In this document: piece by piece, positions 8,833 through 54,210 of the stretch
Layout of the letters: each line of letters begins with the position of its first letter
Position numbering within the stretch: the stretch's first letter is position 1
NCBI GenBank assembly: GCA_963575745.1
Contig: CAUYUJ010021170.1
Coordinates: forward strand, 291,801-355,800
Direction: 5' to 3'
Origin: Prorocentrum cordatum
Lineage: Eukaryota > Sar > Dinophyceae > Prorocentrales > Prorocentraceae
DNA: 64,000 nucleotides
Notes under the pieces: generated by a model
The model's database searches: none
The model's input: the letters and a program-made list of their open reading frames with translations, nothing else
Told to the model about the DNA's origin: nothing
Made by a program: the position numbers and the translations under genes

Positions 8833-9085
8833 AGTCGAAAGTGAGCCGGGTAGCTCAAATGTGGCATATAGCCGGGCAAATTGCGTCCATCGCTCTGCTG
8901 TGAAGGTACAGTATGAGGGGTGGACGGATAAGATCGGATAAGATCGATGTAATGATCTTTCCAGCACATAGCGAACACTCGCGGCGTCCGGGCAAATAGG
9001 GCGCGCGTGCCTTGGGCCAAAGGCAACGGCGCGCGAGCTATGCTCCCGATACTGTAACATCTCCCAAAGAGCTACCCTTAAAGTC
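8833..9085 (-). repeat. Element 1 3' LTR
   Basis: Direct repeat of 24529-24781 with six substitutions and no indel. On the coding strand it begins GACTTTAAGGG and ends CTTTCGACT, so it lacks the usual TG...CA ends; the first and last four bases are both GACT. It still encodes the first 64 codons of Gag as an orphan frame (9026 downward). Confidence 0.92.
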
Positions 9086-9454
9086 GGGAGGGGAGGAGAC
9101 GGAGAGCATAGTCGCACGCAAAGATCGCGCGCACGACTGTTTGCAAAGAAAAGAAAACAGTGCGTACAGTCTGGTCAAACACCAGACTGTAAGGCGAGTT
9201 TCCTCGCAAAGTATTTCACGCAAATACAGGACAGCCCCTTCAAACAATGAAGGGCTATCGGCTCAGTTAGAGGTAAGCCAAAATTAGGCCATACCTCACC
9301 AAGCAAATGTGTATTAAGGCAAAGAGCCTGAGTTGTACGAAGCCGGCTCGTTGCCAGGCGTGAAATATAAGGCTCGTTTCCGAGCAACTAGAGGGGCGCC
9401 TTTATAGTAGGCGCCCGTGCTGGCAAACTGGACCGCGAGGGCAACAAGGACAGA
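9086..9454 (-). promoter_or_regulatory. Element 1 3' UTR with a cluster of hairpins
   Basis: There is no gene between the RNase H stop (9455) and the 3' LTR. The segment holds a perfect 11-bp stem with a 5-nt loop (9165-9191), a GNRA-array hairpin (9194-9207), a CCCTTC/GAAGGG stem (9236-9254), a broken array copy (9345-9359), another array copy (9372-9385) and an 8-bp stem GGGCGCCT/AGGCGCCC (9394-9416). The purine run expected as polypurine tract just before the 3' LTR is on the wrong strand: 9086-9108 is purine-rich on +, pyrimidine-rich on the coding strand. Confidence 0.7.
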
Positions 9455-10440
9455 CTAAAATTGATTAGACTTAGGTTTGTCTCTGTCCTCGGGACCCCGA
9501 AAGGGAACAAATTGCTTCACGTCATACTTAAATGACTGAGTGCCTGACATCACTTCCAGAAGCAGCTCCCGATCGATGCTTCCCTTTGTATGCCCATCTG
9601 CGGTCATATCCCTAGTATCACACCATTGCACATTATGTACTATACCTATATCCATGAGCTCACGTATCCAGCTGATATGTCCAAGCAGAGTCCGTTCTGT
9701 AGGTATTTTGAGATCCCTGCTTGATAAAGATTTGTAGACGGACTCGGCGTCTATGGTAAGAGAGACTTTGATAGCAAGGCCTCCAACTTCACGCATGTCT
9801 CGTAGTTGTCGTGGAGTCAAAGCCCCTGCCTTAAGCTCGTGGAGAGTAATGAGCGTAGGGTAACACTCATCAAGGTTATGTGCGGCTGCAAGTGCCTCCG
9901 CAACATAACTGGACCTCACCTGTAATCGGTGTGATTTGCATAGTCCGTCACAGAGGTGAACGACGGACTTGCCTTGGGGCGAGTTTCCTCGCCGTAGTGC
10001 GTTGGCCCCGCGTATGCCGTGGCCCTTGGTCTCGTCATCCTCCTCCCCGGTAAGCTTCGGATACCCCGAATCGCTATGGATGTCAACTTCATTCGTCGGC
10101 TTCATCCGAGGGAAGGTGATGCGCTTCGGACTGCTGATCAGCTTTCGCGTCACAGCATTCAAACGTCTGACTTGCAAATTGGCGGGCTCTTGAATTTTCT
10201 GAAGAGAGACCACATATACCATAAGCCAGATTTGGGTAAGAAGGGCGCGGGCGAGGGCTCCTCGCAGGCTGACGAACATGTCGGTAATGAGTTTCGTGGC
10301 TTTGGCGTCGGCCGCTGCTCCTGTAAGTTCTGGGTGTGTGATAGGACGTAATTGTTTAATATACTCGTCCTGGTCCATGATCACATCTCCCTGATCATTC
10401 TTAGTGTAGCGAACGGCGCAGTTCGCATGTGTGCTTGTTG
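9455..10440 (-). CDS. Element 1 RNase H domain (frame-shifted end of Pol)
   Basis: The frame runs from the RT end to a stop at 9455. It has the four acidic positions of a copia RNase H: Asp in VDIHSDSGYP, Glu in SSYVAEALAAAHNLDE, Asp in LTIDAESVYKSL and Asp in WCDTRDMTADGHTKG, the last being the usual (A)D..TK ending. The enzyme degrades RNA in the RNA:DNA hybrid during reverse transcription. It continues the Pol protein, but in a frame one nucleotide on (+1): the RT frame stops at 10401 while this one is open from 10480, and the real join is near KLNKHT at about 10430. A single-base indel in this copy or a programmed shift would explain it. Two GNRA hairpins lie in or near it (9979; 10764 upstream in RT). 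Confidence 0.8.
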
Positions 10441-13400
10441 AGCTTGCATTTGCCAAATACCTTTTCGACACGTTGTACATAGTCGTCTATATTTTTCTCT
10501 AGACCTGTCATGTTAATATCATCGACATGTTTTGCCGTCAGAAGGTCTTGGCTGAATTCAAATTCAGGATCGTAGCTGGTCGGTGCAAGTCCTATAGCTC
10601 GTGTGGTCGTACGAAGTTTGAGAGAGAACGCTCTTGGAGCGTCCTTAGTACCCGTTCCTGGTTTGAGGCATCTAAGACAGCGTCGACTTTCGTCGTAGGA
10701 TGAGAAGCCGGGTAAGGTACGAAGTACCTGAGCGCTTCCTGGTGGAAGAGTAAAGCAAACCATGCGAGTTTCCTCGCCGGTGGCATGGGCAAGTTCCTCA
10801 TAGGTCAAACCTTTTAGGAACGCCTTATCGATATCCATGGATGCTAAGATCCACTCTGGATGACATGCCGCTTCACTTGCCAGGAGTCGTTGGGACTGCC
10901 TTCGGGCGGTTCCCGAGAATGTTTCCACATCAAAAGCCTCAGTATCCATAAATCCACGAAGGACCAGTCTGAGACGAAGGGTTTTATCGTTCTCGGTACC
11001 CATCTTTACGAACTTCCACTTGTATACGTATCTGGATGTCATGATGTTGGAAGCTTTGGATAAATCGTACATCTCAAAGCATCGGTTATCAATCCAGATT
11101 TTGAGCTCAGTATATAAGGCTTCACTAACCTCCTTTGGATGTGCTGCTATGTCGGCTTTGGTCAGTAGATCATCTTCTTTGACAACCACAGCACGTTTAG
11201 CAGCAGAGGATACATATACTCTCATCGTTGCGACCATATCGGTATCGAGCTGTGCAAGTTGAGTCTGATCCAACACTATTTTTGACATTTCTGATGTAAA
11301 GCATAGTTCAACGTAAGGACCGTATTCATCACTGTCTAGAGAGTAGCTCTCGTCGGTTGTGTTTGAACAAAGAGATACTAGACAGGACTCACATGATTTC
11401 GGCTCGTCTCCGAGCATATCTGATGATGTAATATCATCTTCGTCCACAAATGCTGAAACCAAAACACATTGGTCGGGCAGCATAGTTGTTGGGACGCAAT
11501 AAAGATAATCATCGGTAATCGTCGTAGGATGAAGGTCCATACGTAGCTCGTCGTACCACTCTTCCAGCATCATAGCTTCGATATTGTGTTCCTCATTTTC
11601 CTCATAGATTGTCGACAGACGGCCTTCGCTCGGCGATGAAGCATCTGGTGTGTCTGGAGAAGGCCTGTTTCCAGGCGACTCGTGTTCTCCAGACGTGTTG
11701 CTTGGATGCTGATATTTGGCCAAATCGTCGTGAAATCCTAAGGAAGGGACACGTGAAGTCAAGCATTGAATAAGTCTGGAGTGAGCGCTACCAGTGATCT
11801 GAGAAATGTTTAAGCCGGTGCCCACACATTCGTAATAGTGGAACGCCGGGCTGATGTCGTTGTCATAGTGGATCAGCGTAGACCCGGTGGCGTACTTTAC
11901 TGCAGGTAGGCTTGACACACTCTTAGCCAATCGAACTGCTACTACATGTTCTACTCGGAAGTAATTTCGTACGAGATACTGTAGTGCTAAGTGTACGCGC
12001 GGGTGAAACTTGCTGTCGTCTGACAGATTAAGGTTTCCCTTGTAATCGGGGATATACCCGAAAACTTTGGCAGGTTTCCCTGCGCTGAGGTGTGCCACAT
12101 AAGCAAGGACGGTTTGCATGGCCATATTATCCATGCCAAGTTCCCGTGTGAGGAGACATTCGATGTATAGTGTGTGACGAGCATCAGGATACATCACAAT
12201 TACCTCACGAGATCCTGCCTTGACAACAATATGTCCTCTTTCAGGCACATTTCGGATCACCGGGAATGGGCCATTCCAGCCTCCATGGTCGTCCTTGGTG
12301 GCAGTAGGTCGGTGGTAGTCGACCAAATCCCCTGATGAGTAGAGGCGAGCACCATCAGGAGTCGTCTTAGCCCTAAGAGCCCGATTTGTCTTGGCCACAG
12401 CAGTAGCCTGAGTTATAGCTTCTAGGCTGACTTCCCTTACACGACGTTCTCGTTCGTGTCCTGAAGTCTCGGGTCCCTTGGGAAAGTCAAGGGTATCGAG
12501 ATCAGGAAGGAAGGAGGGCTGACGTCCTGTGTGTGCCTGATATGGCGATACTCCGTTATAAAACGTAAACGCATTAGTAACGAAGATGCCTTCCGCCAAT
12601 ACTCTAGTGAATACAACAGGGATGTTGTGTCTATTCAATTCTTCCTCAATCATGTGGAGGACGCCTCTGAGAATGCCGTTTCGTGACTCAATTGAAGTCG
12701 CGTGTTGGCCAGGTGCTCGGATACGAAGTTCCGTGCCCTTATTGGCCATCATGGTTTTAGCGGCATCGTTATTCAGGGCGCCTTCTCCGTCTGAGTATAA
12801 AACTTTGAAGGGTCCGTGATAGGCAATCCAGCAATAGTGGTAGGCGTCGATGATAGTGTCACGTTCTCTGTCGGAAATTTCTAGGCCTGCTGCCAGGCGA
12901 ATACAACGATCCATAATATGAAATATGGTCCGTTTCTTGTAAAACATGAGGTCCATTTCCCCTTCATCGAGCCAGTTACCAGGAAGGCTCACCGATGGTA
13001 GTGTTGAGTTTCCTGGACGTTCCCATGCTCTACATTCCCGACAGGTATCGCAGACTTCCTTGATCATGTTCAGTCGAACGTTATCAAGCCCCACCTTTTC
13101 GAGGATTAGCCTCATCTTTGGCTCCTTCGCATGATGCCATCGCAGATGCAGTTTTCGGAGTTCCTTTTTCACGACATGAGGTTCGTGACTACGGAGACTC
13201 TGTAGACTGTGTTGGATGTCGAATCTCGTCCAGTCGGGTAGTCGTGGAGCCCCAGAGCCGGTGGAGGTAAGAGGGTTCCTTGTAGCTCTCCGTAGTTGGT
13301 CCCCTGTGTTAACTGCGTCTGGAGGTGGTGGTGCGCCTTGTAGACGGCCGCGGCGGGCCGCCACCTGTGGCACTTCGCTAGAAGACGCAGAAGGCGTGTT

Positions 13401-15944
13401 TCCACGCTCGGGGGCGTCTCGTAGCATGTCGTAGCTGCTCGGATCGACGTTGCCGAAGGATCGTGGTCGTGGTGGCCTGGCGCTTGCGCCTTGACGGCCA
13501 CCTGAAGCTGAAGCTTGGCCCTCACCAGGTTTAGGTAAGGGTTTCCACCAAGCTGGCACGGTTTTGCCTTCGGGGTCGTGGTCGTCTGGCAATTTAAATG
13601 GTTCAGCAAAACGACATTTACCAGGTTCGGTATCGAGGTGGTTCTTAACACCCTTGCTTCTCGTAAGATCCCTCTGACATGCTGGACATGGCCAATATAC
13701 AGAGATGGAATCATGATATTTACACTGCGTAGGGTCTCTGTTATGGCTGGGACTGTCCTTTCGGACGTTGTCGATGCATGCCGGGCAAGTAGCCACCTTT
13801 GGGATGATACGATCACCGATGCGTCTCATACCTTCGCCTGGTTCAGCTTGATCGGGAAGGTCTGTAGGATAAGCATGTGCGGTACTTATAGGCGCGTTTC
13901 CGCGCGTGGTGTCAATGGCTTTCGCCAGATATACAGCTTCCACGAAGGCAGACTGCAGTCGTCGGGTGTATTTTTGTGCCAGTGAAAGCTCGGTATTGCA
14001 CGGTTGTGCGTGCACATGCTGACCGTTACACTTGAGTCGCTCAAAGGGTTTAAGAATTGTCTCGTCGTTGCTGGTGATATTTGTCGGCTTCTTAATATAG
14101 TCACCAGTCGTGTCTTTAAGTCCCGTAGCGCATTGGTCAATGCGTACGGTTGTAATGCGTGGTCGGTTGGCAAGCTTCTTCCATGGAGAAATATCGTCTA
14201 CCCATGTTCCTGTATGTTGTTCGCGTATAAACCACCTCCGAGAGTCATCTTGGGTTACAGCAATTTTACCACAATAAGTTATGTGTGGTAAGTCTTCTTT
14301 ATGGTGCTGTTCCCAAGTGTTGTAGTTGACTTTGTAGTTGTAGTAGGATGGTGGTCCTGTGGTGCGGCAGCTGGGTTGCAGTATGGCAACTCGTACGTAG
14401 CATATAGCAAAGTAATGGTCTATAACTTGCTGCACCGAGGGGTCTCCCAGGTCGACGTATGTAGTCTTGTCCAAGTTGCCGCCTGAGGAAAGTCCCCTTG
14501 AGAAGGCAAGCTCTGAGATGCCACCCTCACCGCCACAAAGCTCCAACATATCTACGCAGTTGTTATGACCATAGCATAGTGTAGCAACTATGCTGTATAT
14601 GTTAGCGCGTGTGTCGGGCATAGATGTGGGGAGGGTAAGGAACAGGTCATCGTCCTCGTCGGAGCTTATCAGCTCAACAGGGACGTCAGTACTCCAGGTT
14701 GCCATAAGATCCTGTCCGAGTCCTGACAAGTCGTCGCCGCAATCATCGTTTCCGTCTTCAACGTGCTTTTTAATGCGGCGAGGCTTGATGCCTGCTTCCT
14801 TTTCGGCTTTGAGCCTCTCCTTCTGTTTTATACGCGATTCAGTGGGTAAAGCTTGCTCGTCTTGTTCGTCGGTCTGTGTACTCATTGTCGTGGTTGAATG
14901 GGTACATGCGTCAATCGCCAGAGTCGGGAGGGGGAGAGAACAGTCATCTATGATGACGCGTCGATGTTTCTGTGGTGATTGAGTCGGCTCGTTTCCGAGC
15001 AAGACCGGTTCCTCGGGTTGCCAATACAACCGAGTACTGATGTTGGCAACCCCTGCAGGTAATGGTGCATGCCAATCATATCCTGTTGGTTGATCGGTAA
15101 CTGAGATATCCTGAATAACCGCATTGGTATCCAGGTTGATTGTTACACGTCGGATGACTTCAGACCATTTTGGTCCTCCCTTATTAGTCGTCACGTAGTG
15201 ACGGGTGTTATGGTCTGTACGTGTATACGTATTTTGGTATACGGGCACGTTTCCGTGCGTGGTGGTGCTCCCCAGGATGTTGTCGTTCAAGTGACGGATG
15301 AGTGTAGTACGTGTCTGAGCTCGCCATTTAGCATGCCGTACTGTATGGCCGTACCAATCCAACACATGTTGTGGTATTGCCTGCTTACAGGTACATGCCC
15401 ACAGCTTCGAGCTAATCGGTATTGATGATGCTACCTGCATATAAGTACCGCTTGGTGTACTGTCTTGCATATTGAACCGAATACCGAAATGACACAAACG
15501 CATCCGTATTACTGACAACTTTAGATCTTCCAGAGTATCACGTACTGGAGATAACTTCCAAACATATCCTGGGGGACCACATATTATGATCTTCATGCGG
15601 AGTTTCTTTGCTTTTATCAATAGGTTCTGGATACGTGACCAATGTGGGGCCACTTTCTTTCCTGGAGTTCTTACGTACCAGTCGCCCGGAGTACTGATCC
15701 ATATGAGAGTGTAATCTCCACTGATCACCGCACCTAGGTAGTTTGTGCCCACGCTTGTCATAAGTTCGTTGTGGGAAATACGATCACAAATATAACCTCG
15801 TGTGCGGAGGTCGGCACATGCCTCCCTCGTATCTTCAATGACAAAAGCCCTCTTGCTAAGGCAGGTTACCAAGCTGTCCTTGTTACCCCCCGGCTTTTCA
15901 GCCAACAGGCAAGACGACGAGGGGGCGACGTCGCCCTGCCATCT
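10401..15944 (-). CDS. Element 1 Pol: unknown N-domain, methyltransferase-like, zinc motif, integrase, RT
   Basis: Residues are numbered from the TTG at 15905. There is no ATG until residue 49, and the frame is open back to the protease stop. Residues 1-300 are an N-domain of unknown function; its part at 243-300 (GGPKW..V.RRVT, NISTRLYW) recurs in element 2. Residues 453-665 resemble a SAM-methyltransferase fold (MLELCGGEGGISELA), although no clear catalytic Cys motif is seen. CPAC...C...CPAC lies at 707-743. Integrase follows: HHCC at 920-958 and catalytic D985, D1039, E1073 (33 residues between the last two). RT occupies about 1603-1826 with SMDIDKAFLKG and AKHVDDINMT (HVDD in place of YVDD). 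Integrase before RT is copia order. Nine array hairpins lie in this frame. The methyltransferase call is the least certain. Confidence 0.88.
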   Translation of the reverse strand, partial: RWQGDVAPSSSCLLAEKPGGNKDSLVTCLSKRAFVIEDTREACADLRTRGYICDRISHNELMTSVGTNYLGAVISGDYTLIWISTPGDWYVRTPGKKVAPHWSRIQNLLIKAKKLRMKIIICGPPGYVWKLSPVRDTLEDLKLSVIRMRLCHFGIRFNMQDSTPSGTYMQVASSIPISSKLWACTCKQAIPQHVLDWYGHTVRHAKWRAQTRTTLIRHLNDNILGSTTTHGNVPVYQNTYTRTDHNTRHYVTTNKGGPKWSEVIRRVTINLDTNAVIQDISVTDQPTGYDWHAPLPAGVANISTRLYWQPEEPVLLGNEPTQSPQKHRRVIIDDCSLPLPTLAIDACTHSTTTMSTQTDEQDEQALPTESRIKQKERLKAEKEAGIKPRRIKKHVEDGNDDCGDDLSGLGQDLMATWSTDVPVELISSDEDDDLFLTLPTSMPDTRANIYSIVATLCYGHNNCVDMLELCGGEGGISELAFSRGLSSGGNLDKTTYVDLGDPSVQQVIDHYFAICYVRVAILQPSCRTTGPPSYYNYKVNYNTWEQHHKEDLPHITYCGKIAVTQDDSRRWFIREQHTGTWVDDISPWKKLANRPRITTVRIDQCATGLKDTTGDYIKKPTNITSNDETILKPFERLKCNGQHVHAQPCNTELSLAQKYTRRLQSAFVEAVYLAKAIDTTRGNAPISTAHAYPTDLPDQAEPGEGMRRIGDRIIPKVATCPACIDNVRKDSPSHNRDPTQCKYHDSISVYWPCPACQRDLTRSKGVKNHLDTEPGKCRFAEPFKLPDDHDPEGKTVPAWWKPLPKPGEGQASASGGRQGASARPPRPRSFGNVDPSSYDMLRDAPERGNTPSASSSEVPQVAARRGRLQGAPPPPDAVNTGDQLRRATRNPLTSTGSGAPRLPDWTRFDIQHSLQSLRSHEPHVVKKELRKLHLRWHHAKEPKMRLILEKVGLDNVRLNMIKEVCDTCRECRAWERPGNSTLPSVSLPGNWLDEGEMDLMFYKKRTIFHIMDRCIRLAAGLEISDRERDTIIDAYHYCWIAYHGPFKVLYSDGEGALNNDAAKTMMANKGTELRIRAPGQHATSIESRNGILRGVLHMIEEELNRHNIPVVFTRVLAEGIFVTNAFTFYNGVSPYQAHTGRQPSFLPDLDTLDFPKGPETSGHERERRVREVSLEAITQATAVAKTNRALRAKTTPDGARLYSSGDLVDYHRPTATKDDHGGWNGPFPVIRNVPERGHIVVKAGSREVIVMYPDARHTLYIECLLTRELGMDNMAMQTVLAYVAHLSAGKPAKVFGYIPDYKGNLNLSDDSKFHPRVHLALQYLVRNYFRVEHVVAVRLAKSVSSLPAVKYATGSTLIHYDNDISPAFHYYECVGTGLNISQITGSAHSRLIQCLTSRVPSLGFHDDLAKYQHPSNTSGEHESPGNRPSPDTPDASSPSEGRLSTIYEENEEHNIEAMMLEEWYDELRMDLHPTTITDDYLYCVPTTMLPDQCVLVSAFVDEDDITSSDMLGDEPKSCESCLVSLCSNTTDESYSLDSDEYGPYVELCFTSEMSKIVLDQTQLAQLDTDMVATMRVYVSSAAKRAVVVKEDDLLTKADIAAHPKEVSEALYTELKIWIDNRCFEMYDLSKASNIMTSRYVYKWKFVKMGTENDKTLRLRLVLRGFMDTEAFDVETFSGTARRQSQRLLASEAACHPEWILASMDIDKAFLKGLTYEELAHATGEETRMVCFTLPPGSAQVLRTLPGFSSYDESRRCLRCLKPGTGTKDAPRAFSLKLRTTTRAIGLAPTSYDPEFEFSQDLLTAKHVDDINMTGLEKNIDDYVQRVEKVFGKCKLNKHTCELRRSLH

Positions 15945-15947
15945 TCA
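15945..15947 (-). promoter_or_regulatory. Single in-frame UGA between protease and Pol
   Basis: The protease frame ends TCT-TCA-TCT-TGA. The very same frame continues without a break for 13 codons to 15905 and then for 1834 more. The 3' context is AGA-TGG, which is not a classical readthrough signal. This could be readthrough, recoding or a mutation; the length of the frames on both sides argues against general decay. Confidence 0.65.
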
Positions 15948-17348
15948 AGATGAAGAAGACGTGCCTACAATATCTGCCAGCATCTGGGCTTCCCTCAGAT
16001 GCTGGAGCTCAGCACTGCAGCGCGCCGTGGCCTCAGAGGCGGATTGCTCCGCAAATGCTGTCAGCATCGATGGATTATCCATCAGCTGTTTCAGCACGCC
16101 TTTGGACCTAGCGTCGCTGACCGTATGCAATTCACGGTTAGTGTATCCCATCACTATCTTACGGCGGGACTGTACAGCGTCCATGGGTACACTACCACCA
16201 TGCAGGGCCAGTGTCCTGGCAACAAAACAATCGAACGTCTCGAGATCGTCGATGTTGTCGCCTCGCATGGTGGCCTTGGCGAGCGTCTCCATCAACCCCT
16301 GGGGCAGGTTTCCCTGCAATTGCTTGCGCTCCTGCGCCGGGGTCGGCTCGCCTGTCAGCACTGTCTGGAAGGACGTGCTGCTTGAGCTCGAGGCGGGTTG
16401 CCCCGCAGCTCCAAAACAATCACACCTGATCGACAGATGCCCTGACGGCAACTTTGTCGTCGGCATGATTTTGGAGCCTTCTGGGAGCTCCATTTTGACC
16501 TGCCCCTTACCAGGGAATATCAGCTTCTCCTGGCCTCGTTCAAGCACGATGATCGTGCGTTTGTCCTGCATACTATCGAGACCTAGGATGGCTGGCAGGT
16601 CCTTGCCACAGCCTGACACAATGTTCGTCTTGTATGAATCGAGTTGGGCCGACCCCTGGTACTCGCAGGCAATACTGAATGTGCCTACGGTATCCGCTGG
16701 GGCCGACCCTTCTCCCACTCCGTTGATATTCAAACGAGAGCGGGGCTCGAACGTACAAGTACGGCCATGTGCCTCGGCAGCCTGGACGAACTTACGGCTC
16801 GTGTTCTCGCCCATGATGTTGATCTTCGAACCGACGTCGATGAGTATGGAATTTCCACCATCATCCAAGAACGTCTTACTCGGCTGCTTGATGTGCACAG
16901 TTTCTGAAGTGTCGGCTGTGTCGGTAGGCGGGTTTCCCCGCGGCACAGTCGTACTCCCTGGCGGGTTACCCCGCATGACACTGGCATGCGACTCGCTCTC
17001 GGCCATGCGTGCCAGGTCAATGTACTGGAAGTACGACACGTGCTGGGCGTGATCGCCACGCTCCTCCCGCCAGTTGGCATACTCATCACGTATGCTCATA
17101 TACTGCTCGCGGGTCGTGCGCCTTATCAACGTTAGGTACGAGTGAAGGGCGATGTCTTGCAGCCCCTCGTTCGTGATGTGATCCCGGCACCGCAGCCACT
17201 CCTCGAACTCCTCGTTCGTCGCTGAGATATTGACGGCCCTGGCTGCTGTTGCTGCTGACGCCACTGAGGATTCTGATAAGTCTAGCGACGGACTATCAGT
17301 TTCAGGATTGTTGGCATCCAGCATAAATGTTGTGTGCGTATTATCCAT
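15945..17348 (-). CDS. Element 1 aspartic-protease ORF
   Basis: The likely start is the ATG at 17348, which overlaps the previous stop. It gives 467 residues. The first 120 residues are Ser/Ala-rich and then helical with a WLRCRDHITNEG segment. The protease core follows: NSILIDVGSKINIMG, where the active-site triplet is Asp-Val-Gly in place of the usual Asp-Thr/Ser-Gly, and LPAILGLDSM, the second conserved hydrophobic-Gly segment. Retroelement proteases dimerise and cut the polyprotein. Valine at the second position is unusual and could reduce activity. Two adjacent array hairpins (16928, 16961) code for RGNPP twice, just before the core. The C-terminal third is helical and ends in a Ser run before the in-frame UGA. 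Confidence 0.78.
   Translation of the reverse strand: MDNTHTTFMLDANNPETDSPSLDLSESSVASAATAARAVNISATNEEFEEWLRCRDHITNEGLQDIALHSYLTLIRRTTREQYMSIRDEYANWREERGDHAQHVSYFQYIDLARMAESESHASVMRGNPPGSTTVPRGNPPTDTADTSETVHIKQPSKTFLDDGGNSILIDVGSKINIMGENTSRKFVQAAEAHGRTCTFEPRSRLNINGVGEGSAPADTVGTFSIACEYQGSAQLDSYKTNIVSGCGKDLPAILGLDSMQDKRTIIVLERGQEKLIFPGKGQVKMELPEGSKIMPTTKLPSGHLSIRCDCFGAAGQPASSSSSTSFQTVLTGEPTPAQERKQLQGNLPQGLMETLAKATMRGDNIDDLETFDCFVARTLALHGGSVPMDAVQSRRKIVMGYTNRELHTVSDARSKGVLKQLMDNPSMLTAFAEQSASEATARCSAELQHLREAQMLADIVGTSSSS
17341..17348 (-). promoter_or_regulatory. ATGGATAA stop/start overlap
   Basis: The TAA ending the Tpt1-RING ORF (17341-17343) lies inside the eight bases that begin with the protease ATG (17346-17348). 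Such overlaps support termination-reinitiation in some viruses and retroelements. The frames differ by one nucleotide, so a frameshift near this point is the alternative. Confidence 0.7.
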
Positions 17349-20300
17349 CTGATTCTGGAAATGTCGTACACGCAACACGCAGCTGATCAGGGTCCAGTGA
17401 CATCTCAGCCTCGCCTCCACTCTGAGGAGACATCTGAGGAGTATCATGCAGGTTTCCCTGCTGAGGCGCCGTCATCGGGATAAGCTGATCAAAATATCCC
17501 GTTTCCATAGGCGGCCTTACCTCTTCAGGCAGGTATCCCTGCTGTTGTGACGGAGCTGTCTGCATAGCTAGCATCCTGGACGTCATCTCCTCCACCATGC
17601 TCCTCAGCTCCCGCAGCTCTCTCGCTGACTGCTCAGGAGTCTGACTAAAGGAGCCGGTCCATGGGAAGGATGATGCTATAATGCCAGGTGCTCGACAGAT
17701 AGCACATGGTGGCTGCTGGGGATCTCCCTCACGCTGATTTGTAGCGTGGCCCACCACATTAGAATTCCAGCATCCCTCGTGGAATAGGTGATTGCACCTC
17801 AGGCGGTAAACACTATCCCTGGGCTGATATTCTTCGAGGCATACCGCGCAGGTATCTTCCATCCCAGTAAAGACTTCTACGTCTGCTGCCCTGGGATATA
17901 CCCGCCGTTGCCTCTCCAGTACCGTCTCGGAGGGCATGAAGGCTGATGGGGGTGTCCCCGTTGGATTCAGCACCTCCTGCACTTCCACATTTGGCATGGA
18001 AGTGGTAGGAGTCACGGCGGGCGAGTTTCCTCGCAAAGGTGAGCCCCTGTTCCTCACCACATCAAGTGCAGCTGCACGTGACTGATCCCGTGCGCTTTGC
18101 ACCGCCTGCCTTCTCCTGAAGCATGCCTGCTGAGTGTGGTGCGTCTGCCTGATGTAGTCAGGCACGCCCCTACTGCCAGACGATATTGAATGGGCAGTGG
18201 GCTGGACAACCACCTCTGGTGATGTCGGTGAAGGCATGAAGGCCATGTGCGGGTACATGGAATGGTCACTGCAGCGCACATTAGTGAGGTTATGCATCTG
18301 ATCCGCCAATTCACGAACAAATTTGTTCGGAACCCTTGACCCATCAGGGTATAATGGCGGGTTCATCTGCGCTGGTGGTGGCCTCTGGCCCTGAGACATG
18401 CTCGGATGGGCATTGAACGCCGGGATAAAGGCTCGTTGCCGAGCAGGATCCCGTGGGTTGGGACCCTCAGGCTCCCAGGACCAGGCTGGCCTCCACCTCT
18501 GCCCACTTGGGTGAGGCAGATTATGGCTCTGCACCTGCTGCACCGCGGCCGCCACTCTTGAGCGATAGTCGTCAGGTACACCCGCCCTGTGGTGGCTTGG
18601 TGTGCCAGGCAGGTTTCCCTGCTGACTCGTTGGCGTGCCGGGCGGCATCATGTTGAGGAGGGCTGTGCTGTGTTCAGCCCTAGCCGCAGCTATCCTCTCC
18701 ATGAGAGTGCCGTTTGTGGCAGGGCGGACAGGTGTCCCGAATGGGGATTGTGCCGGTGGTGTGCCCAATGGAGTCATGCCCCTTGGAGTGTGCATGCTCT
18801 GAGTAGGGCTTCCATGCATTGGTTCAAACCGAGCAGGTCCGCTTGTAGGCAGGTTTCCCTGCATGGCCTGACGATTTCTCGTAGCCATAGCGGACATTGC
18901 TCCCTGGCCTGCGGCCCAGGGATCCTGCTGGTATAACCTGTCCGCCAGCTGTTCTACCTGGTCAGGGTTCAGCGCGGCTGCGATCTGATCCAGGTCCGAG
19001 GTACTGATGGCCTGCCAAGACACGGCACTAGGCCCTTGGCTTGGGGCACGGCTTGGAGCCGCGCTCCCGGCCTCACTCTCGGTAATCATGAAGATCCGAT
19101 AGATCTCAGGCTGGTTTCCCAGCTGGGTAGGGCTGTGGTGGTCCCCAACTTCCCTGTGGAGGTAACCCATAGGGGGGTCAACACCCCCTTGGTCTCGGGA
19201 CCACTGGTACTTAACACTGGAAGTACCAACGTCAGCCCACCTGTCAGGAGCAGACATCGTTGCGACAGAGACTCGCGCATGGCGGCTCCCCAGATACTCT
19301 GGATTACGCCATTGCCTTCCTGTGGACAGGTCCTCTACATGAGAAATGTAATACGGTTCAATGATACCGTTATCTCCCTCGGACAAGAGGACTCCGTTAT
19401 CGGACCAACATAACTTCATACCATCTTGTATGGCCTTACGCCAATCTACGAAGATGATGATGTCTGAGTCTGGGTCCCACCCACTGTTCACGGCACGGCG
19501 GCGAACTGTCGGCACGAAGTGAATGTGCGACCGGCCTGTCCCCTTTTTCTTCGTGTTATGCTCAGGTCTACAGGGCAGGCCGTGCCACATAATCCCCTCG
19601 AAGGCGTGCCATCGAGTGCCATGCATAGCAACATCGGGGCATGGGGCCGGTCTCCCGGCAGGTTGGTCGCACAGCACAATGTAGCTGTACAGCGACCATG
19701 GAGCTTTCAATTCCCATGAATGCCCCTGAGAGGCGCGGACGAAGATAGCGGGCTCTCCGGAGCCCCGCATCAACACCTTGAACTGTAGGCGCTGTTTTTC
19801 TTCTCCGTCTGGTTCACGGACATGAACAACTGCCATCATGATGGCTGCTAGTTGGTCAACCGAGCGCCTACATAGATGCTCGTTGATGATCTTGGCCTCG
19901 TCATATCGTGGATTATACCCAGCGTGTCTTGATTGACCTGTGTTCCACGGATAACGGTCCACGAGTTCCACTAGGTTAACCCAACCATCACGATCACCGA
20001 AAGATTCCAAGCGCCACACAGGGTTGTGTTGCTTGTCTGGCGCATGTCTGCATATCCTGCTGAGAGCTTTGCTCAGCTGTTTGAGAATATCATTGGATGT
20101 GGGAAGGATTCCAGCTTTCCTGCATTCCTTCATGAACGTCTCATCCACCGAGCGTATCGGTGGGAGCTTCCGAAGCGCAAGTCTATCCCTGATCACATTT
20201 GGAGTCCCACTAGTGAAGGACGTGTCACCTGGGTGGTGCAGCTGAACCACTGGCGGGTTTCCCCGCATCGGAACCTCTGTTGCTGAAGAGGCTGCGGCTC

Positions 20301-22344
20301 CAGAAGAGGAGGAAGCTGCGGCGGCAGCGCCTGGCGGGTTTCCCCGCGGAGATGCGCGACTGGCGCTGCCCCTGATCTTCGGCGCCCAGGTACCCCTCGA
20401 CATAGCACCTTCATCGGACCTCCTGGAACGAGCCGCCACAGGCGAAGCTGGCGCAGGTGCATACCCACTGCGCTCGAAAGCTGCCGCCTTTTTCGCAATG
20501 GAGCTGCTGCGACTAGGCGGGCGTCTTCGTTCCTCCATAGGGTCCTGAGGTTGCTGCTTGGGCACAGACGCTTGTGTAGGAGTTGCGCCAATCGGCGGCC
20601 CCGGAGTTTCAGTTCGAGGCACCTCCATCTGCACGTCTGGCCCAGGGTCCTGAGGGCTCGTCTTCGGTTTCGGCACCGAGGACGGCTTAGGTGTCGGGGG
20701 TTCACTCTTGGCCTTCGAAGTTCGTGGGAGTGGGGGCCTCGTAGCCCTCTTCATGTAGATCTTACTAGAATCCTCCAACATATTGCGAGTTGCCTCGCGA
20801 GTGCGGTCTTCTGCTGTCCGCATACGCTCCTCGTCCTCCGCCACACGTTGAACCTTTTTCTCATCCTTGATTGTCGGTTCTGGTTGTTGGGACTGGCTAG
20901 AGACGCCAGGCGAGTTTCCTCGCATACTAGGAAGACTGAAGAGCGCGTCTTTCTCTTCCTGGGTCATGGCTACCAGTCCCCTTGGAACCGGGGTAGGCTT
21001 TTCTTCTTCTTTCGGATCCAAGTGGCTCAAGATCCCGAGACGACGATTCACTTCTGCGATCTCTTCCTGCGTCATCGGGATAAGTTGCGGATGGCCCTCT
21101 TTATGAGGGGTTTTGCCCCTGTTGGGGCTCAGGCCTTCGTTGTTGCCAACGGGGCATCCTGGTCTGTGGTTCTGGAACGGCTGGGAACAAGGTCCGCATG
21201 CTGCGTGAGGCCTATACTGCTTGCGCGCCGCGATAATGTCTCGCAGCTGAGTCCGCGCCTCTTGAATTTCAGGGCGGCGGGTATTTGTTGCAAGCTGATA
21301 GCCTCCGCGGATGGCCTTGCCATCACTGTCCCTATAGGCAGGGTTGCCCTTGCCGAAGGCCGAGTGTTCCCCTTTTCGGCGTCTTGGGTCGTTGTACGGA
21401 AGTAGCTGGCCACCTCTCCTAAGAGCGTGTTCTTTTGGGCCAGCCTGCCTCCACTCACGAGGAAGTCGCGCCTGTGGATGTGGCTCTTCTCTGACGCGCG
21501 TATGGGAACGAGACCTTCTGGTGTTCTCATCCGAAGAAGCTGCCGAAGCAGCAGGAGCGGCACCCGGTGGAGGTGCCTGAGGAGGCTCCTGTGCGATCCC
21601 AGATGGATCGTCCGATGGAGGCAGGTCTCCCTGCTGGGTGGAGCTCGGCGCAAATGGCGCTTGTGCCGATGGTGATGATGATTCAGACTCATCAGGATCG
21701 AAGTCAACCTCTTCCTCACCATTCATGTCCATCATGAGGATGGTGACGTCATCCTCATCTAACCCGCAACCATCGCCTTCTACTTCTTCTGATGTCGAAC
21801 TACCAATGATGATGGCCATTGGCGTATCTGATACAGGCAGGTTTCCCTGCATAGCCGGCGTCTGTGCGTCGCTCGGCTGTCCCGGAGTAGGAGGCACTGT
21901 TGTCGGCTCAGGCTCGTTGCCGAGCACAGGCTGCCCAGCAATGTTGCGCATGGCCGTATGGTTTGGCCTCATTCCCACCGCCTGGAGTCCCCATCCTGGC
22001 GGAGGAAGATCATGACCGCGCATAGCAATAGCCATTTCTAAAGCATTACGCCATCTACCACGGGAGTATATCAAGTGTCTCTGCACGCCCTGAGGATGCA
22101 CGCTGTCAACGAGGGTCAGAGCTGCCAACAACAGCTCTGAGCTACCGCAAGCATCAGTATCCTGTTCTGTCATAATGTCAGCTTCGATATGTTCTTGACT
22201 CTCATGATAACCAGTAACAAGTATCTCATGCATCCTCATGAGGGTCTGCAAAAGGGTGCGTGGTCCATATTCGCCTGGAGCAAGCGAACCAGGAGGTATG
22301 AACGGAGTATCTGGTTCGCCTGCAATGAAGGCCTGAACAAATGC
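17341..22344 (-). CDS. Element 1 large ORF: RNA 2'-phosphotransferase (Tpt1/KptA) domain plus RING finger
   Basis: The frame is open from the UAG at 22345; the first ATG is at 22239. Numbering is from 22251 (1636 residues). Residues 1-700 are Pro/Ser/Arg-rich and probably disordered. Residues 724-975 match Tpt1/KptA: LSKALSRICRHAP with DGWVNL (winged-helix lobe), IFVRASQGHS (839-845, the RxxQGHS signature), AMHGTRWHAF (HGT 877-879), SHIHF (908-912) and WSDNGVLLSEGDNGII near 950-963. Tpt1 uses NAD+ to remove a 2'-phosphate left at ligated RNA junctions; some members also ADP-ribosylate 5'-phosphate ends. All signature residues look intact. Residues 1468-1519 form a RING-H2 finger (CAVC, CNHLFHEGC, CAIC), typically an E3 ubiquitin ligase. 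The domain pairing within a retroelement is unusual. Seventeen array hairpins lie in this frame. Confidence 0.9.
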   Translation of the reverse strand, partial: AFVQAFIAGEPDTPFIPPGSLAPGEYGPRTLLQTLMRMHEILVTGYHESQEHIEADIMTEQDTDACGSSELLLAALTLVDSVHPQGVQRHLIYSRGRWRNALEMAIAMRGHDLPPPGWGLQAVGMRPNHTAMRNIAGQPVLGNEPEPTTVPPTPGQPSDAQTPAMQGNLPVSDTPMAIIIGSSTSEEVEGDGCGLDEDDVTILMMDMNGEEEVDFDPDESESSSPSAQAPFAPSSTQQGDLPPSDDPSGIAQEPPQAPPPGAAPAASAASSDENTRRSRSHTRVREEPHPQARLPREWRQAGPKEHALRRGGQLLPYNDPRRRKGEHSAFGKGNPAYRDSDGKAIRGGYQLATNTRRPEIQEARTQLRDIIAARKQYRPHAACGPCSQPFQNHRPGCPVGNNEGLSPNRGKTPHKEGHPQLIPMTQEEIAEVNRRLGILSHLDPKEEEKPTPVPRGLVAMTQEEKDALFSLPSMRGNSPGVSSQSQQPEPTIKDEKKVQRVAEDEERMRTAEDRTREATRNMLEDSSKIYMKRATRPPLPRTSKAKSEPPTPKPSSVPKPKTSPQDPGPDVQMEVPRTETPGPPIGATPTQASVPKQQPQDPMEERRRPPSRSSSIAKKAAAFERSGYAPAPASPVAARSRRSDEGAMSRGTWAPKIRGSASRASPRGNPPGAAAAASSSSGAAASSATEVPMRGNPPVVQLHHPGDTSFTSGTPNVIRDRLALRKLPPIRSVDETFMKECRKAGILPTSNDILKQLSKALSRICRHAPDKQHNPVWRLESFGDRDGWVNLVELVDRYPWNTGQSRHAGYNPRYDEAKIINEHLCRRSVDQLAAIMMAVVHVREPDGEEKQRLQFKVLMRGSGEPAIFVRASQGHSWELKAPWSLYSYIVLCDQPAGRPAPCPDVAMHGTRWHAFEGIMWHGLPCRPEHNTKKKGTGRSHIHFVPTVRRRAVNSGWDPDSDIIIFVDWRKAIQDGMKLCWSDNGVLLSEGDNGIIEPYYISHVEDLSTGRQWRNPEYLGSRHARVSVATMSAPDRWADVGTSSVKYQWSRDQGGVDPPMGYLHREVGDHHSPTQLGNQPEIYRIFMITESEAGSAAPSRAPSQGPSAVSWQAISTSDLDQIAAALNPDQVEQLADRLYQQDPWAAGQGAMSAMATRNRQAMQGNLPTSGPARFEPMHGSPTQSMHTPRGMTPLGTPPAQSPFGTPVRPATNGTLMERIAAARAEHSTALLNMMPPGTPTSQQGNLPGTPSHHRAGVPDDYRSRVAAAVQQVQSHNLPHPSGQRWRPAWSWEPEGPNPRDPARQRAFIPAFNAHPSMSQGQRPPPAQMNPPLYPDGSRVPNKFVRELADQMHNLTNVRCSDHSMYPHMAFMPSPTSPEVVVQPTAHSISSGSRGVPDYIRQTHHTQQACFRRRQAVQSARDQSRAAALDVVRNRGSPLRGNSPAVTPTTSMPNVEVQEVLNPTGTPPSAFMPSETVLERQRRVYPRAADVEVFTGMEDTCAVCLEEYQPRDSVYRLRCNHLFHEGCWNSNVVGHATNQREGDPQQPPCAICRAPGIIASSFPWTGSFSQTPEQSARELRELRSMVEEMTSRMLAMQTAPSQQQGYLPEEVRPPMETGYFDQLIPMTAPQQGNLHDTPQMSPQSGGEAEMSLDPDQLRVACTTFPESDG

Positions 22345-22347
22345 CTA
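22345..22347 (-). promoter_or_regulatory. Single in-frame UAG between zinc-knuckle ORF and Tpt1-RING ORF
   Basis: The zinc-knuckle frame ends GAG-TCT-TAG and the same frame stays open (GCA-TTT-GTT-CAG ...) into the 1636-codon ORF. UAG separating gag-like and downstream frames is the arrangement used for readthrough in gammaretroviruses. Element 2 has a similar TAG-GCA junction at 54334. Confidence 0.6.
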
Positions 22348-23307
22348 AGACTCCATTTCAATTAAGTCTTCAGTGGTCTGGGGATATTCTCCCATCAACG
22401 ACGGCCTGTTTCCAGGCGGGATTTCGGGCGGAGGTTCGAGGTTCCGTTGAACCTCGGAAGGCGAAGCCTCTATAGTGGTGTCCTCGTCGTCGCTCTCGTA
22501 GGCCATGATGTTGCCTGGGTTCCCGAACATCCAGTCGAAGAACGAAAGAGGCTGGTTTCCCAGCGTACCTTGGTCCACGGGAGTGAGCTCGTTACTGCCC
22601 ATAACGAACCGGCGGACGTACTCGAGGTAGTACGCGTACAATCCATGACCATACGCCTCGAGCTCGTCGACGTTGTCCACGCCAACAACCCAAGTGAAAA
22701 ATATCTGCTCCATAGCCTCAAAGTCCTGGAGGCTCAGATACTCAATGGATGGTTCACTTGAGCCAAAATGGACTTCGGTCGACCTGCCCTTTCCATTTCC
22801 CTTCACTGGACAATCTCGCACAAGATGATCGGAACTACCACATTCATGGCATTTGAGAACCTGGCCGTCTCTACCTCGCGGGTTTCCCCGCCTTCCTTTG
22901 CCTTTTCCTGAGGTCTCTCTACGGCCCTTACCACGGCCTTTTCCCCCAAAGAATATCTCATCATGTTGTTCATCTGAGAGCCTCTGGAGAAATGCCGCGA
23001 TACCTCGTCCGTTCAACCTCCGACGACCTCGCTTGCCTTTACCCTTTCCTTTAAAACTTCTACGTATCCTCCTTCTAACACGACGCACTGGTTTTCGTGT
23101 GAACCTCCTCCACCTTCGTTTAGCCTGTTGTAATAACCAGAACAAATGCTCAGCACGCTGATTGTCGTTATCCATATTCATAATATCTGACCAATCTAAA
23201 GCTTCAACACCATCTGATGATATAGTGTCTGTATCGGTGCCGGAGTCGAAATCCTCGTCTCCCAAGTAGGTGGATACACCGTCGGTTAGGGGGATTGATT
23301 CCCCCAT
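22345..23307 (-). CDS. Element 1 zinc-knuckle (nucleocapsid-like) protein
   Basis: The ORF has 320 residues and an ATG at 23307 that overlaps the Gag stop by 22 nt. Residues 1-50 are acidic and 60-150 extremely Lys/Arg/Gly-rich (KGKGKGKRGRRR). One retroviral-type CCHC knuckle lies at 153-166 (CHECGSSDHLVRDC, C-X2-C-X4-H-X4-C). The C-terminal half is acidic. The basic domain plus knuckle indicates RNA binding and packaging, as for retroviral nucleocapsid. Three array hairpins lie within it (22404, 22551, 22878). The segment VHFGSS is encoded by a spliced-leader-like sequence (22757-22778). Separation of capsid and nucleocapsid into overlapping frames is unusual for copia elements. Confidence 0.82.
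   Translation of the reverse strand: MGESIPLTDGVSTYLGDEDFDSGTDTDTISSDGVEALDWSDIMNMDNDNQRAEHLFWLLQQAKRRWRRFTRKPVRRVRRRIRRSFKGKGKGKRGRRRLNGRGIAAFLQRLSDEQHDEIFFGGKGRGKGRRETSGKGKGRRGNPRGRDGQVLKCHECGSSDHLVRDCPVKGNGKGRSTEVHFGSSEPSIEYLSLQDFEAMEQIFFTWVVGVDNVDELEAYGHGLYAYYLEYVRRFVMGSNELTPVDQGTLGNQPLSFFDWMFGNPGNIMAYESDDEDTTIEASPSEVQRNLEPPPEIPPGNRPSLMGEYPQTTEDLIEMES
22757..22778 (-). other. Spliced-leader-like sequence inside a coding frame
   Basis: The minus strand contains CCATTTTGGCTCAAG exactly as in the dinoflagellate SL, preceded by CCGAAGT where the SL has CCGTAG. That is one substitution and one inserted base over the leader. It is translated as part of the zinc-knuckle protein. Such a long match is unlikely by chance. 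Confidence 0.5.
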
Positions 23308-24722
23308 AAAGAACGGTGTGGTTGTGGTTCTCTAGAAGGAGGGCTGGTTGCCCAGCTTGGTTGTGATCGATCCCCTGCTAATGACGCAGTGGATTCACCT
23401 GGGTCATCGGCCCATATGTTTGAGGGCCCGTTTCCAGGCTGGGCCTCAGTAGTCAAGGTAGTGTAGAAATTTTCACTACCAGATCCCCTTCCCCTTCCAA
23501 ACACAGATCCTATGTTACCAGGAGACCGTTCGGATAGGTGGCCTATCGAACGCATCCTCTCCAGCAACTCATCATACTGTCGTTGTGTTCGGGGCATTTG
23601 GTGATTGAGTGGCTGTAAGAGTTGCATGGCTCGCTGGTTGCCGACGCCTAAGGCGCGGAATAGGATAGTGGTTAGCAGTTGGAAGTTGGGAAGGTCGAGT
23701 CCCACCGATTGTGCCTCAAGTCGGGCCATTTCGAATCGGGCAAGGGTGACATCGATTCGTTCCCCGTGAGGCACGTGGAAGTCGATGAGTTGTGTGCCGG
23801 AAGTGAGCTGTCGCTCATCTTCCAGGCGTTCGAACTTCATGCTTAGGAGGAACATGATGTAGGTCACTGGGTCTGTGTGGACCCCATCGATGTCAGCACC
23901 ATAGTTTATAATGTCAGGCGGTACCCTCATGGCGAGTGTCCTCGCTAGGCCACCTAGGCCGCGTTGTATTGCGGCCGCTTGGGCCTGTGGCGTCATACGT
24001 CCGCTTGTAACGTTGAGCCATGCGTTGACCTCGTAGATGTACTCACGAAAAGGTACATTACCTTGAGGGTCCCAATATGGGCCATGTGTTTGCCCATCGG
24101 TGCTGTTTTCTCCACGACGCATGTGTCCGATTGCTGCCCCCAGCGCGAACCATATAATAGCGAAAACGACTAGCCCGAGAATGTGTAACGAAGGACGGTT
24201 ATGATGCGCGTTGTCGCGCTGGGGTAGCGCCTTGTCGAGTCTTCGAGGCGCTCTGTCTGGCGGGTCTCCCCGCCCCTGCTTCAAGTATTGCGCTGTTAGC
24301 TCGTTGCCGAGCGGTTGGTGGTAACGCAATGATGAAGCGTATATGGTACCAGTCTGGTCGTCTAGACGTCGTACCTCTCGTGTTGCTTCTTGCTCTTGGA
24401 TAGATCCTCGTAAACGTACTGGGAGTGGTGGCGCAGGGTGGTAGATAGTCACGAAAATCGTGCCGAATAATATGAGGCTAAGAAGAGCAAGAGCTGACCA
24501 CACGAGAGTGCGGCCAGCTCCGCTACCAAGTCGAAAGTGAGCCTGGTAGCTCAAATGTGGCATATAGCCTGGCAAATTGCGTCCATCGCTCTGCTGTGAA
24601 GGTACAGTATGAGGGGTGGACGGATAAGATAAGATAAGATCGATGTAATGATCTTTCCAGCACATAGCGAACACTCGCGGTGTCCGGGCAAATAGGGCGC
24701 GCGTGCCTTGGGCCAAAGGCAA
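23286..24722 (-). CDS. Element 1 Gag (capsid-type) with two N-terminal membrane segments
   Basis: The ORF has 478 residues. The ATG at 24722 lies inside the 5' LTR, so the first 64 codons are LTR-encoded, a situation known from yeast Ty1. Predicted membrane helices lie at about 73-94 (LVWSALALLSLILFGTIF...) and 180-199 (LHILGLVVFAIIWFALGAAI). Residues 215-400 resemble the helical copia Gag/capsid region (PYWDPQ, FREYIYEVNAWLNVTS, LGGLARTLA, VTYIMFLLSMKFERL, LLERMRSIGHL). The protein would form the particle shell and, with the helices, might attach to membrane. Membrane helices in Gag are odd for copia elements. The stop lies within a GGGGG/CCCCC hairpin that also holds the next ATG. Four array hairpins lie within it. 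Confidence 0.82.
   Translation of the reverse strand: MPLAQGTRALFARTPRVFAMCWKDHYIDLILSYPSTPHTVPSQQSDGRNLPGYMPHLSYQAHFRLGSGAGRTLVWSALALLSLILFGTIFVTIYHPAPPLPVRLRGSIQEQEATREVRRLDDQTGTIYASSLRYHQPLGNELTAQYLKQGRGDPPDRAPRRLDKALPQRDNAHHNRPSLHILGLVVFAIIWFALGAAIGHMRRGENSTDGQTHGPYWDPQGNVPFREYIYEVNAWLNVTSGRMTPQAQAAAIQRGLGGLARTLAMRVPPDIINYGADIDGVHTDPVTYIMFLLSMKFERLEDERQLTSGTQLIDFHVPHGERIDVTLARFEMARLEAQSVGLDLPNFQLLTTILFRALGVGNQRAMQLLQPLNHQMPRTQRQYDELLERMRSIGHLSERSPGNIGSVFGRGRGSGSENFYTTLTTEAQPGNGPSNIWADDPGESTASLAGDRSQPSWATSPPSREPQPHRSLWGNQSP
24514..24528 (-). promoter_or_regulatory. Primer-binding site, initiator tRNA-Met-like
   Basis: The coding strand reads TGGTAGCGGAGCTGG directly after the 5' LTR. It begins with TGG, the complement of the tRNA CCA end, and resembles the primer sites complementary to initiator tRNA-Met. 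Direct contact with the LTR fixes the LTR edge and confirms orientation. Confidence 0.75.
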
Positions 24723-24781
24723 CGGCGCGCGAGCTATGCTCCCGATGCTGTAACATCTCCCAAAGAGCTACCCTTAAAGTC
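24529..24781 (-). repeat. Element 1 5' LTR
   Basis: Counterpart of 8833-9085. It contains the Gag ATG (24722) and therefore both promoter/leader and coding sequence. No TATA-like element is obvious, as is usual for dinoflagellates. A GATAAGATAAGATAAGAT run at about 24625 replaces GATAAGATCGGATAAGAT of the 3' copy. Confidence 0.92.
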
Positions 24782-30620: not shown

Positions 30621-30771
30621 CGAGGCCTCCTCATGCCACCCGGCGCTCCGTACCGAGTCTCGGGCACCATCCGGGACGCTCCCGGGGCCGCTCGTGTGAG
30701 CGTCGGAGGCCCCGAGCCGCGATGCCCTGTCAAGGCCCCATTGTTGGAGGTCCATGGCCCTCTATTCTGGT

Positions 30772-53951: not shown

Positions 53952-54210
53952 CTTCTTGAAGAAACAATATGCACTGCATGTCGGTAAGTCGCGTGCCCAT
54001 TTATGGGTATGATCATAATCAATTTGGTATGCTTCCGCTTTTGGACCGAATTATATCTCAAATCGCAGGCATGACTCTATCCTGTCCACCACAAGGTCGG
54101 CCCTGCCAGTGTGTAAGTCCATAATTTATTTCACCTTTATCATTGGAGAGTCCACCAGTGGTTCCAATGTCCAGCGGTATACGCGGTGGTCATAAGATGA
54201 AATACTCCAT
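53952..54210. other. Short gap between element 2 ORFs C and D
   Basis: Lower GC than the surroundings; short minus frames without motifs. Confidence 0.4.

Follow-up and report, generated by a model that had tools for sequence, protein, structure and literature searches.

Why should one dinoflagellate retrotransposon carry the same small hairpin dozens of times, in coding and non-coding sequence alike? The question is raised by a stretch of 64,000 nucleotides (nt) from Prorocentrum cordatum (assembly GCA_963575745.1, contig CAUYUJ010021170.1, positions 291,801 to 355,800), hereafter the window, in which a copia-like long terminal repeat (LTR) retrotransposon of ~16 kb occupies positions 8833..24781 with its sense strand on the minus strand. 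That selection acts on the hairpin structure itself is well supported. Sequence comparison further suggests, in a case that we regard as evenly balanced, that the hairpins form a dispersed RNA recognition array, whose reader would be a binder specific to the family, possibly Gag, acting in selection or assembly of the element's genome.

The pattern GCNNG-GNRA-CNNGC with all five stem pairs formed occurs 36 times between 9194 and 24312, always on the minus (sense) strand, and is absent in this paired form from the plus strand and from the rest of the window. This recount agrees with the number, extent and strand given in the original prediction and with its description of the stems as complementary throughout save for one G.U pair: 35 sites are Watson-Crick and one, GCCTG-GAAA-CGGGC at 23426..23439, bears the wobble. 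Two details change. The variable two pairs take 11 combinations among the 36 sites, the wobble being one of these, rather than ten, and all 36 loops are GNRA rather than 35. The non-GNRA loops lie in three extra sites, GCGAG-GACA-CTCGC (23932..23945), GCCAG-GACA-CTGGC (16207..16220) and GCAGG-GATA-CCTGC (17529..17542), which bring the paired sites to 39 when GNNA loops are counted. Two additional paired sites have other loops (12885 and 24206), and two of the 41 loose matches to GC..GG..AC..GC are unpaired (15861 and 9346). The base following the stem is C at 34/39 sites (25/28, 6/6 and 1/3 in the three codon phases, and 2/2 outside open reading frames, ORFs), while a sixth Watson-Crick pair is present at 2 sites of the element against 5 to 10 expected. 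Spacing is weakly regular, with a coefficient of variation of 0.76 versus a random mean of 0.98 and 4% of random sets as low. A look for GAAA receptors, taken as far as counts, gave three occurrences of CCTAAG and 23 of TATGG.

Composition is ruled out as the source of the array by dinucleotide shuffles and by mostly unpaired background matches on contig C1 of the same genome. In 300 shuffles of the element the exact form averages 0.02 (maximum 2) against 36 observed, and the GNNA form 0.04 (maximum 2) against 39. The original prediction had put the chance expectation for a five-base-pair (bp) stem around a GNRA loop at about one per 33 kb, a figure that is possible for Watson-Crick stems only; with G.U allowed, 300 shuffles give a mean of 3.5 per element (maximum 9), and 41 are observed. 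When the 3′ arms of the loose matches are re-dealt in 20,000 trials, 9.2 pair on average (maximum 19), as against 39 of 41. The background consists of 96 of the 100 GNRA-pattern matches listed on contig C1, the other four lying inside a related element; 8 of the 96 pair by Watson-Crick rules and 19 with G.U, versus 36/38 in the element. Neither the shuffles nor this background refutes the array. The excess of stems with five Watson-Crick pairs is most marked at 4-nt loops, with 63 against 14 expected, but loop lengths from 3 to 10 other than this also run about twofold over shuffles (25-34 vs 15-17). The window between 25.5 and 52 kb is likewise above its shuffles, there through TATA and ATAT loops, which probably derive from a simple-repeat stretch at 30569-31576 that gives a His/Thr-rich ORF.

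Pairing is maintained by covariation. Across the 41 sites (24 of them distinct), 97.5% of cells pair versus 76.4% in shuffles, and the covariation score is 0.516 versus 0.092, with 0/500 shuffles as high. Two further measures, double-sided changes and further pair types, do not exceed shuffles because just two pairs vary and the shuffled columns keep their letters. In predicted folds of 214-nt contexts, pair probability is above 0.5 for 31/39 array stems versus 23/110 other hairpins. Rfam yields no match above its gathering score in the window.

The pairing is superimposed on protein code in more than one register. Coding sites number 37 and fall into the three codon phases as 28, 6 and 3, with GCGAG-GCAA-CTCGC (20785..20798), GCCGG-GAGA-CCGGC (19646..19659) and GCTCG-GCAA-CGAGC (18431..18444) among those outside the commonest phase; GCTCG-GAAA-CGAGC (9372..9385) and GCGAG-GAAA-CTCGC (9194..9207) lie outside the listed ORFs altogether. 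The commonest phase reads xGNxP, with complementary codons for the two x residues (QGNLP, RGNPP, LGNEP, RGNSP and others). Shuffling synonymous codons inside the ORFs leaves a mean of 2.3 sites (maximum 6 in 300 shuffles) where 37 are observed. The phase bias may reflect the linker residues that each loop class encodes.

Copies of the element show that the stems evolve slowly. In four diverged copies (L063, L064, the C13535 copy comprising L066-L068, and L069), 10/960 stem positions have changed (1.0%), compared with 2279/37,467 positions outside the array hairpins (6.1%) and 164/2739 positions (6.0%) in control stems, namely 107 other hairpins of the element with 5-bp stems and 4-nt loops (Fisher 2e-12, a P value that is too small because the comparisons share ancestry, an ancestry shared by the control hairpins too). 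The loop G and A have changed at 1/192 positions and the middle loop bases at 7/192. A larger set, in which L063 and L064 join 60 loci (some of which belong to the same copy, and from which the two that represent the window were dropped), gives 15/3535 for stems, 289/14,652 for control hairpins and 4906/191,054 for the rest. At third codon positions of close copies, 0.67% have changed in stems versus 4.2% in the rest. Four of the ten stem changes amount to two re-paired pairs: GCTGG-GAAA-CCAGC at 22551..22564 is GCTCG/CGAGC in L063, and GCGGG-GAGA-CCCGC at 24260..24273 is GCGGA/TCCGC in the C13535 copy. Complementarity is thus largely kept between copies, and the dispersed RNA-level signal first proposed gains support from a paired state held by covariation in slow-evolving stems.

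A related element on contig C1 (2045001-2063000; L061 and L062) carries KptA, RING and RVT_2 domains as here, and the larger reverse-transcriptase pieces of the two share 62-79% identity by tblastx. All 32 of its loose matches are paired, with a different loop. Loop position 3 is a pyrimidine in 28/32 (GCCA 15, GTCA 8, others 5) versus 3/39 in the window element, and a purine in 4/32 versus 36/39 (Fisher 3e-12), so that GNRA fits 36/39 sites in one element and 4/32 in the other, and a strict GNRA requirement is not supported. The contrast with the window element is seen in the two commoner codon phases of C1, where pyrimidine loops make up 21/23 and 5/5 of the sites, but not in the third (1/3). 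Covariation within C1 is thin because 27/32 stems are GCGGG; C follows the stem in 9/32, and a sixth pair is present at 4 sites against 8 to 9 expected. The C1 element also holds further paired hairpins with other closing pairs (GCGGA/TCCGC, GCGGC/GCTGC or GCCGC; L061 1957-9763, L062 923-2355), partly within alanine-proline repeats.

BLASTP-aligned stretches of the two elements include 29/39 sites here and 25/32 in C1, and the well-aligned part (63-72% identity) contains five sites of the window element. Two of these coincide with C1 hairpins in DNA and protein alignments, each differing by one compensated pair: GCAGG-GAAA-CCTGC at 12070..12083 is GCGGG-GAAA-CCCGC in C1 (A-T to G-C, both changes synonymous), and GCGAG-GAAA-CTCGC at 9979..9992 is GCGTG-GCCA-CACGC (A-T to T-A). 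The homology of GCTCG-GAGA-CGAGC at 11402..11415 is uncertain because the alignments disagree: the variable C1 stretch holds GCAAG-GCCA-CTTGC and GCGGG-GTCA-CCCGC, the protein alignment leads to the former, and the DNA alignment leads to neither. The other two are GCCTG-GAAA-CAGGC (11663..11676) and GCGAG-GAAA-CTCGC (10764..10777). The latter encodes GEETR; since C1 and the relatives P0001-P0004 keep GE[K/Q]ER, this hairpin was probably gained in the present lineage over otherwise conserved reverse-transcriptase residues.

These properties can be assembled into a mechanism. The sense RNA carries one repeated hairpin, a 5-bp stem with a base of G-C and C-G, a G-C closing pair and two free paired positions, capped by a 4-nt G-N-N-A loop, and selection on the folded nucleic acid maintains their pairing over and above the protein code. 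The array would mark the element's own genomic RNA for a candidate trans-acting binder, one that recognises shape together with a small number of bases and that evolves alongside its element, and the many sites could jointly select and condense the 16-kb RNA. Such a shape-reading, element-linked binder is suggested by the fixed frame, by positions that are free yet paired, by the strictness of the loop ends and by the difference in loop class between related families, and the contrast of mostly GNRA here with mostly GNCA in C1 suggests that binder and element co-evolve. The likeliest candidate binder would be a Gag-region protein in which a CCHC knuckle accompanies an arginine-rich stretch. 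ORF O5 (22345..23307, minus strand), which encodes a CCHC zinc knuckle (zf-CCHC E 3.5e-4) and an arginine-rich stretch visible in its translation, is the candidate reader; both features are common to the C1 element, where the CCHC match (E 0.0022) falls below Pfam's cut-off. We infer the reader and its function; what computation supports is the array itself, its independence of codon phase, covariation, slow stems, the C1 loop class and in-place substitution at alignable sites. A bolder extension, speculative and rather unlikely, would see a self/non-self RNA code among dinoflagellate retrotransposons. Each family would tag its genome with one hairpin in dozens of copies, and its own Gag would match the loop class (GNRA, GNCA, perhaps GNGA elsewhere), which would keep sister families in one nucleus from co-packaging. 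Selection would spread such a code site by site, even across enzyme residues that are conserved.

A number of observations weigh against an array read by Gag. All the evidence for function is computational and drawn from sequence, and an arginine-rich stretch with a CCHC knuckle is common among Gag proteins and no proof of specificity. Array sites are absent from the LTRs and from the interval between the 5′ LTR and 24312, the usual location of retroviral packaging signals. The GAAA, GCCA and GUCA loops are equal in ViennaRNA energy on the same stem. Six of the ten stem changes in the diverged copies are uncompensated: in L063, GCTCG-GCAA-CGAGC at 21912..21925 is lost and GCGGG-GAAA-CCCGC at 16928..16941 lacks one pair; in L064, GCAGG-GAGA-CCTGC at 21621..21634 lacks one pair and GCAGG-GAAA-CCTGC at 18609..18622 is broken. 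One related family, that of C1, was read as DNA. The hairpins at 11663 and 10764 have no C1 counterpart, and in the poorly aligned parts (21-51% identity) a single further site comes to within one base of a C1 hairpin and the others do not coincide; single positions are therefore not essential. Finally, P0001-P0006, proteins from other sources that span the integrase-to-RNase-H region, contain no peptide able to encode a Watson-Crick hairpin, and the array is therefore not general in the wider clade.

Other protein relatives give a weak indication of a broader distribution. Relatives in public data carry peptides that fit the pairing rule (RGDAP, RGDTP, RGNAP, RGNTP and HGNVP). Among P0001-P0019 there are 26 peptides of the form xG[NDHY]xP, of which six were excluded because their first residue has no C-codon; 17 of the remaining 20 can be encoded as Watson-Crick stems and RGNLP with a G.U pair, while RGDRP and HGNLP cannot. 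Some fall at the place of sites in the window element. GCAGG-GAAA-CCTGC at 16304..16317 encodes QGNLP, with HGNVP aligned in P0012 and, by eye, RGNPP in P0019 and RGNLP in P0018; GCGGG-GCAA-CCCGC at 16393..16406 corresponds to AG[KQ]PA in P0010, P0011 and P0012 (aligned) and in P0018 and P0019 (by eye); GCGGG-GTAA-CCCGC at 16961..16974 aligns with KRGDTPG in P0010 and P0011; and, by eye, the GATA-looped site at 17529 corresponds in position to QRGNTP in P0012. The fit is weak evidence for an array in these sources because four partners are open to arginine, because there are near-duplicates among the proteins and because they are known as protein alone. Scans of IMG/VR, from which records very near this genome may be excluded, returned no relatives.

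Among the other explanations, the one that survives best, although we find it doubtful, keeps a selected RNA structure and assigns it to a different host or element factor, whose role would lie in RNA stability, in translation, in nuclear export or in shielding the RNA from silencing or host RNases. The shuffles, covariation and slow stems fit this equally well, and many sites lie, by eye, in poorly conserved inter-domain linkers. Translation pacing alone, however, does not suit the hairpins at 9194 and 9372, which lie outside ORFs, and a single host factor common to both elements gives, on its own, no reason to expect distinct loop classes within the same genome. KptA, a domain encoded by this element, is ruled out as the partner of the array by a second copia-like element in the window (53113-63830, minus strand), which has a KptA-like domain (55014-57176) and an RVT_2 match below Pfam's cut-off (E 5e-4). 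It has no such hairpin array and serves as a natural negative control; its reverse-transcriptase piece has no significant BLASTP match to that of the first element (E 0.37). A further KptA locus, on C15736 (L065), matches neither element and is without an array.

It is improbable that the signal acts as DNA, the hairpin being recognised in single-stranded cDNA or in integrated DNA. Pairing and conservation would look alike for RNA and DNA, and a palindrome is present on both strands. The predicted energy is nevertheless larger for RNA (-7.8 vs -4.4 for one 14-mer, with parameter sets that are not strictly comparable), and the fixed G and A with which the sense-strand loop begins and ends resemble the G.A closing of GNRA folds.

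Two mutational accounts are very unlikely. In the first, template switching by reverse transcriptase turns near-palindromes into perfect ones of no function. The clustered changes at 10764 relative to C1, by which the 3′ arm becomes complementary to the 5′ arm, are what such a process would leave, and the twofold excess at other loop lengths agrees with it. It would not, however, fix the loop ends, the GC base or the G-C closing pair, nor would it suppress divergence in the array while the 107 control hairpins drift at the general rate. Template switching may still help to create sites.

The second, to which we attach equally little probability, is a mini-palindrome inserted many times, as with the mobile in-frame palindromic elements of Rickettsia; the self-propagating hairpin of the original prediction is of this kind. 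It would account for many near-identical units, most of them in one phase, and for the predominance of GCGGG stems in C1. Where the two elements can be aligned, though, sites differ by substitution, and no gap of 14-15 nt lies opposite any site in the C1-aligned DNA stretch, a test that covers a minority of sites, the majority lying in poorly aligned stretches. Presence or absence of the unit by insertion is thus not seen at alignable sites, the site at 10764 appears to be built over conserved residues, and flanking bases are varied save for the C that follows the stem here. Least credible of all is a protein motif (xGNxP or AGxPA linkers, for example protease sites) whose codons are complementary by accident: one phase is common to 28/37 coding sites here and another to 23/31 in C1, but sites in every codon phase and in non-coding sequence, the synonymous-codon shuffles and the altered amino acids that accompany a changed pair rule it out.

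The element that bears the array is bounded by direct repeats of 253 bp, a 5′ LTR (24529..24781) and a 3′ LTR (8833..9085), both on the minus strand; they differ at just 6 positions, from which its insertion is probably recent, and the target-site duplication could not be resolved. Its RVT_2 match of 34.4 bits exceeds Pfam's cut-off of 31.6 and, with the direct repeats, marks it as copia-like. Besides O5, the minus strand holds O6 (23286..24722), Gag-like by position and without a Pfam match; O4 (17341..22251), with KptA/Tpt1 (PTS_2-RNA E 2.3e-22) and RING-finger (zf-RING_11 E 8.7e-8) domains; O3 (15945..17447), protease-like from a LIDVGS motif seen by eye, with no Pfam match above cut-off; O2 (10401..15905), with reverse transcriptase at its C-terminal end (RVT_2 E 2.3e-8); and O1 (9455..10480), whose match in C1 is the C-terminal portion of the reverse-transcriptase ORF and which is RNase H by position, with no Pfam match. 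Pfam finds no integrase in O2, where an integrase-like segment is seen by eye alone upstream of the reverse transcriptase. The remaining hairpins, all on the same strand, are GCTCG-GCAA-CGAGC (24299..24312), GCTGG-GCAA-CCAGC (23343..23356), GCTGG-GAAA-CCAGC (19110..19123), GCCTG-GAAA-CAGGC (22404..22417), GCGGG-GAAA-CCCGC (22878..22891, 20334..20347 and 20253..20266), GCAGG-GAAA-CCTGC (21837..21850, 18849..18862 and 17448..17461), GCGAG-GAAA-CTCGC (20910..20923 and 18021..18034), GCACG-GAAA-CGTGC (15245..15258), GCTCG-GAAA-CGAGC (14987..15000), GCGCG-GAAA-CGCGC (13892..13905) and GCGTG-GAAA-CACGC (13394..13407).

The family is abundant: one search of the genome (4.13 Gb in 21,875 contigs) gave 9651 first-look candidates, and 140/140 of those scored matched at 97-100% identity. 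A protein search found a Prorocentrum cordatum protein with 97% identity over 17% of the query. KptA/Tpt1 RNA 2′-phosphotransferase and RING domains occur inside copia-like elements both here (17341-22251) and in C1 (L061:2895-9812), and KptA itself, searched for across the genome, yielded 2877 first-look candidates, with 150/150 scored matching. A segment of O2 (13986-14648, minus strand) is methyltransferase-like by eye, with three PDB matches of which none is convincing (best E 0.099). A protein filed under the green alga Pyramimonas sp. (P0017) shares 76% identity over 39% of O3, a filing that would reflect contamination or transfer. Elsewhere in the window, 26440-27974 is a tandem repeat whose period is for the most part 102 bp.

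How does the array compare with known systems? Within open-access literature, searched by titles and abstract openings with limited terms, no description of a hairpin array in a retrotransposon was found among the matches listed. The phage boxB hairpin resembles the unit in its 5-bp stem, its GNRA-like loop and its arginine-rich reader, the N peptide; it differs in having a pentaloop, few sites and another biology. Copia-type retrotransposons of dinoflagellates, the same type of element as here, have been described (PMC5890265, PMC11453091), and the word 'hairpin' is absent from the main text of both reports. Coding palindromes of up to 284 bp in mitochondrial genes of Nematomorpha likewise combine inverted repeats with protein coding (PMC6649704), in contrast to the single 14-nt unit with a fixed loop pattern found here. 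The packaging signal of alphaviruses, which consists of 4 to 6 GGG-bearing stem-loops in nsP1, shares repeated stem-loops and a conserved loop motif within an ORF, but its few loops lie in one gene, unlike an array across the whole internal part of an element (PMC8233893).

A further likeness is to the multiple dispersed packaging signals of MS2 and other single-stranded RNA viruses, many small genomic stem-loops with a common recognition motif that have been proposed to select and condense the genomic RNA of small RNA viruses (PMC6281560). The window element likewise has many dispersed stem-loops with a shared motif, and a structure conserved with compensatory change. In those viruses other stem-loops share merely aspects of the motif of one strong site (PMC6281560), and the degeneracy of the sites makes dispersed packaging signals hard to prove. 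Here, in contrast, 39 near-identical covarying hairpins with a fixed pair frame lie in an LTR retrotransposon, with Gag as the candidate counterpart of coat-protein binding. If the reading as a recognition array is correct, a eukaryotic retroelement would here clearly show selection on nucleic-acid structure side by side with selection on protein sequence, and at one site, 10764, apparently in opposition to it. Because many near-identical, covarying sites are available, in a family that is abundant and has a relative with different loops, the recognition rule would then be readable from sequence.

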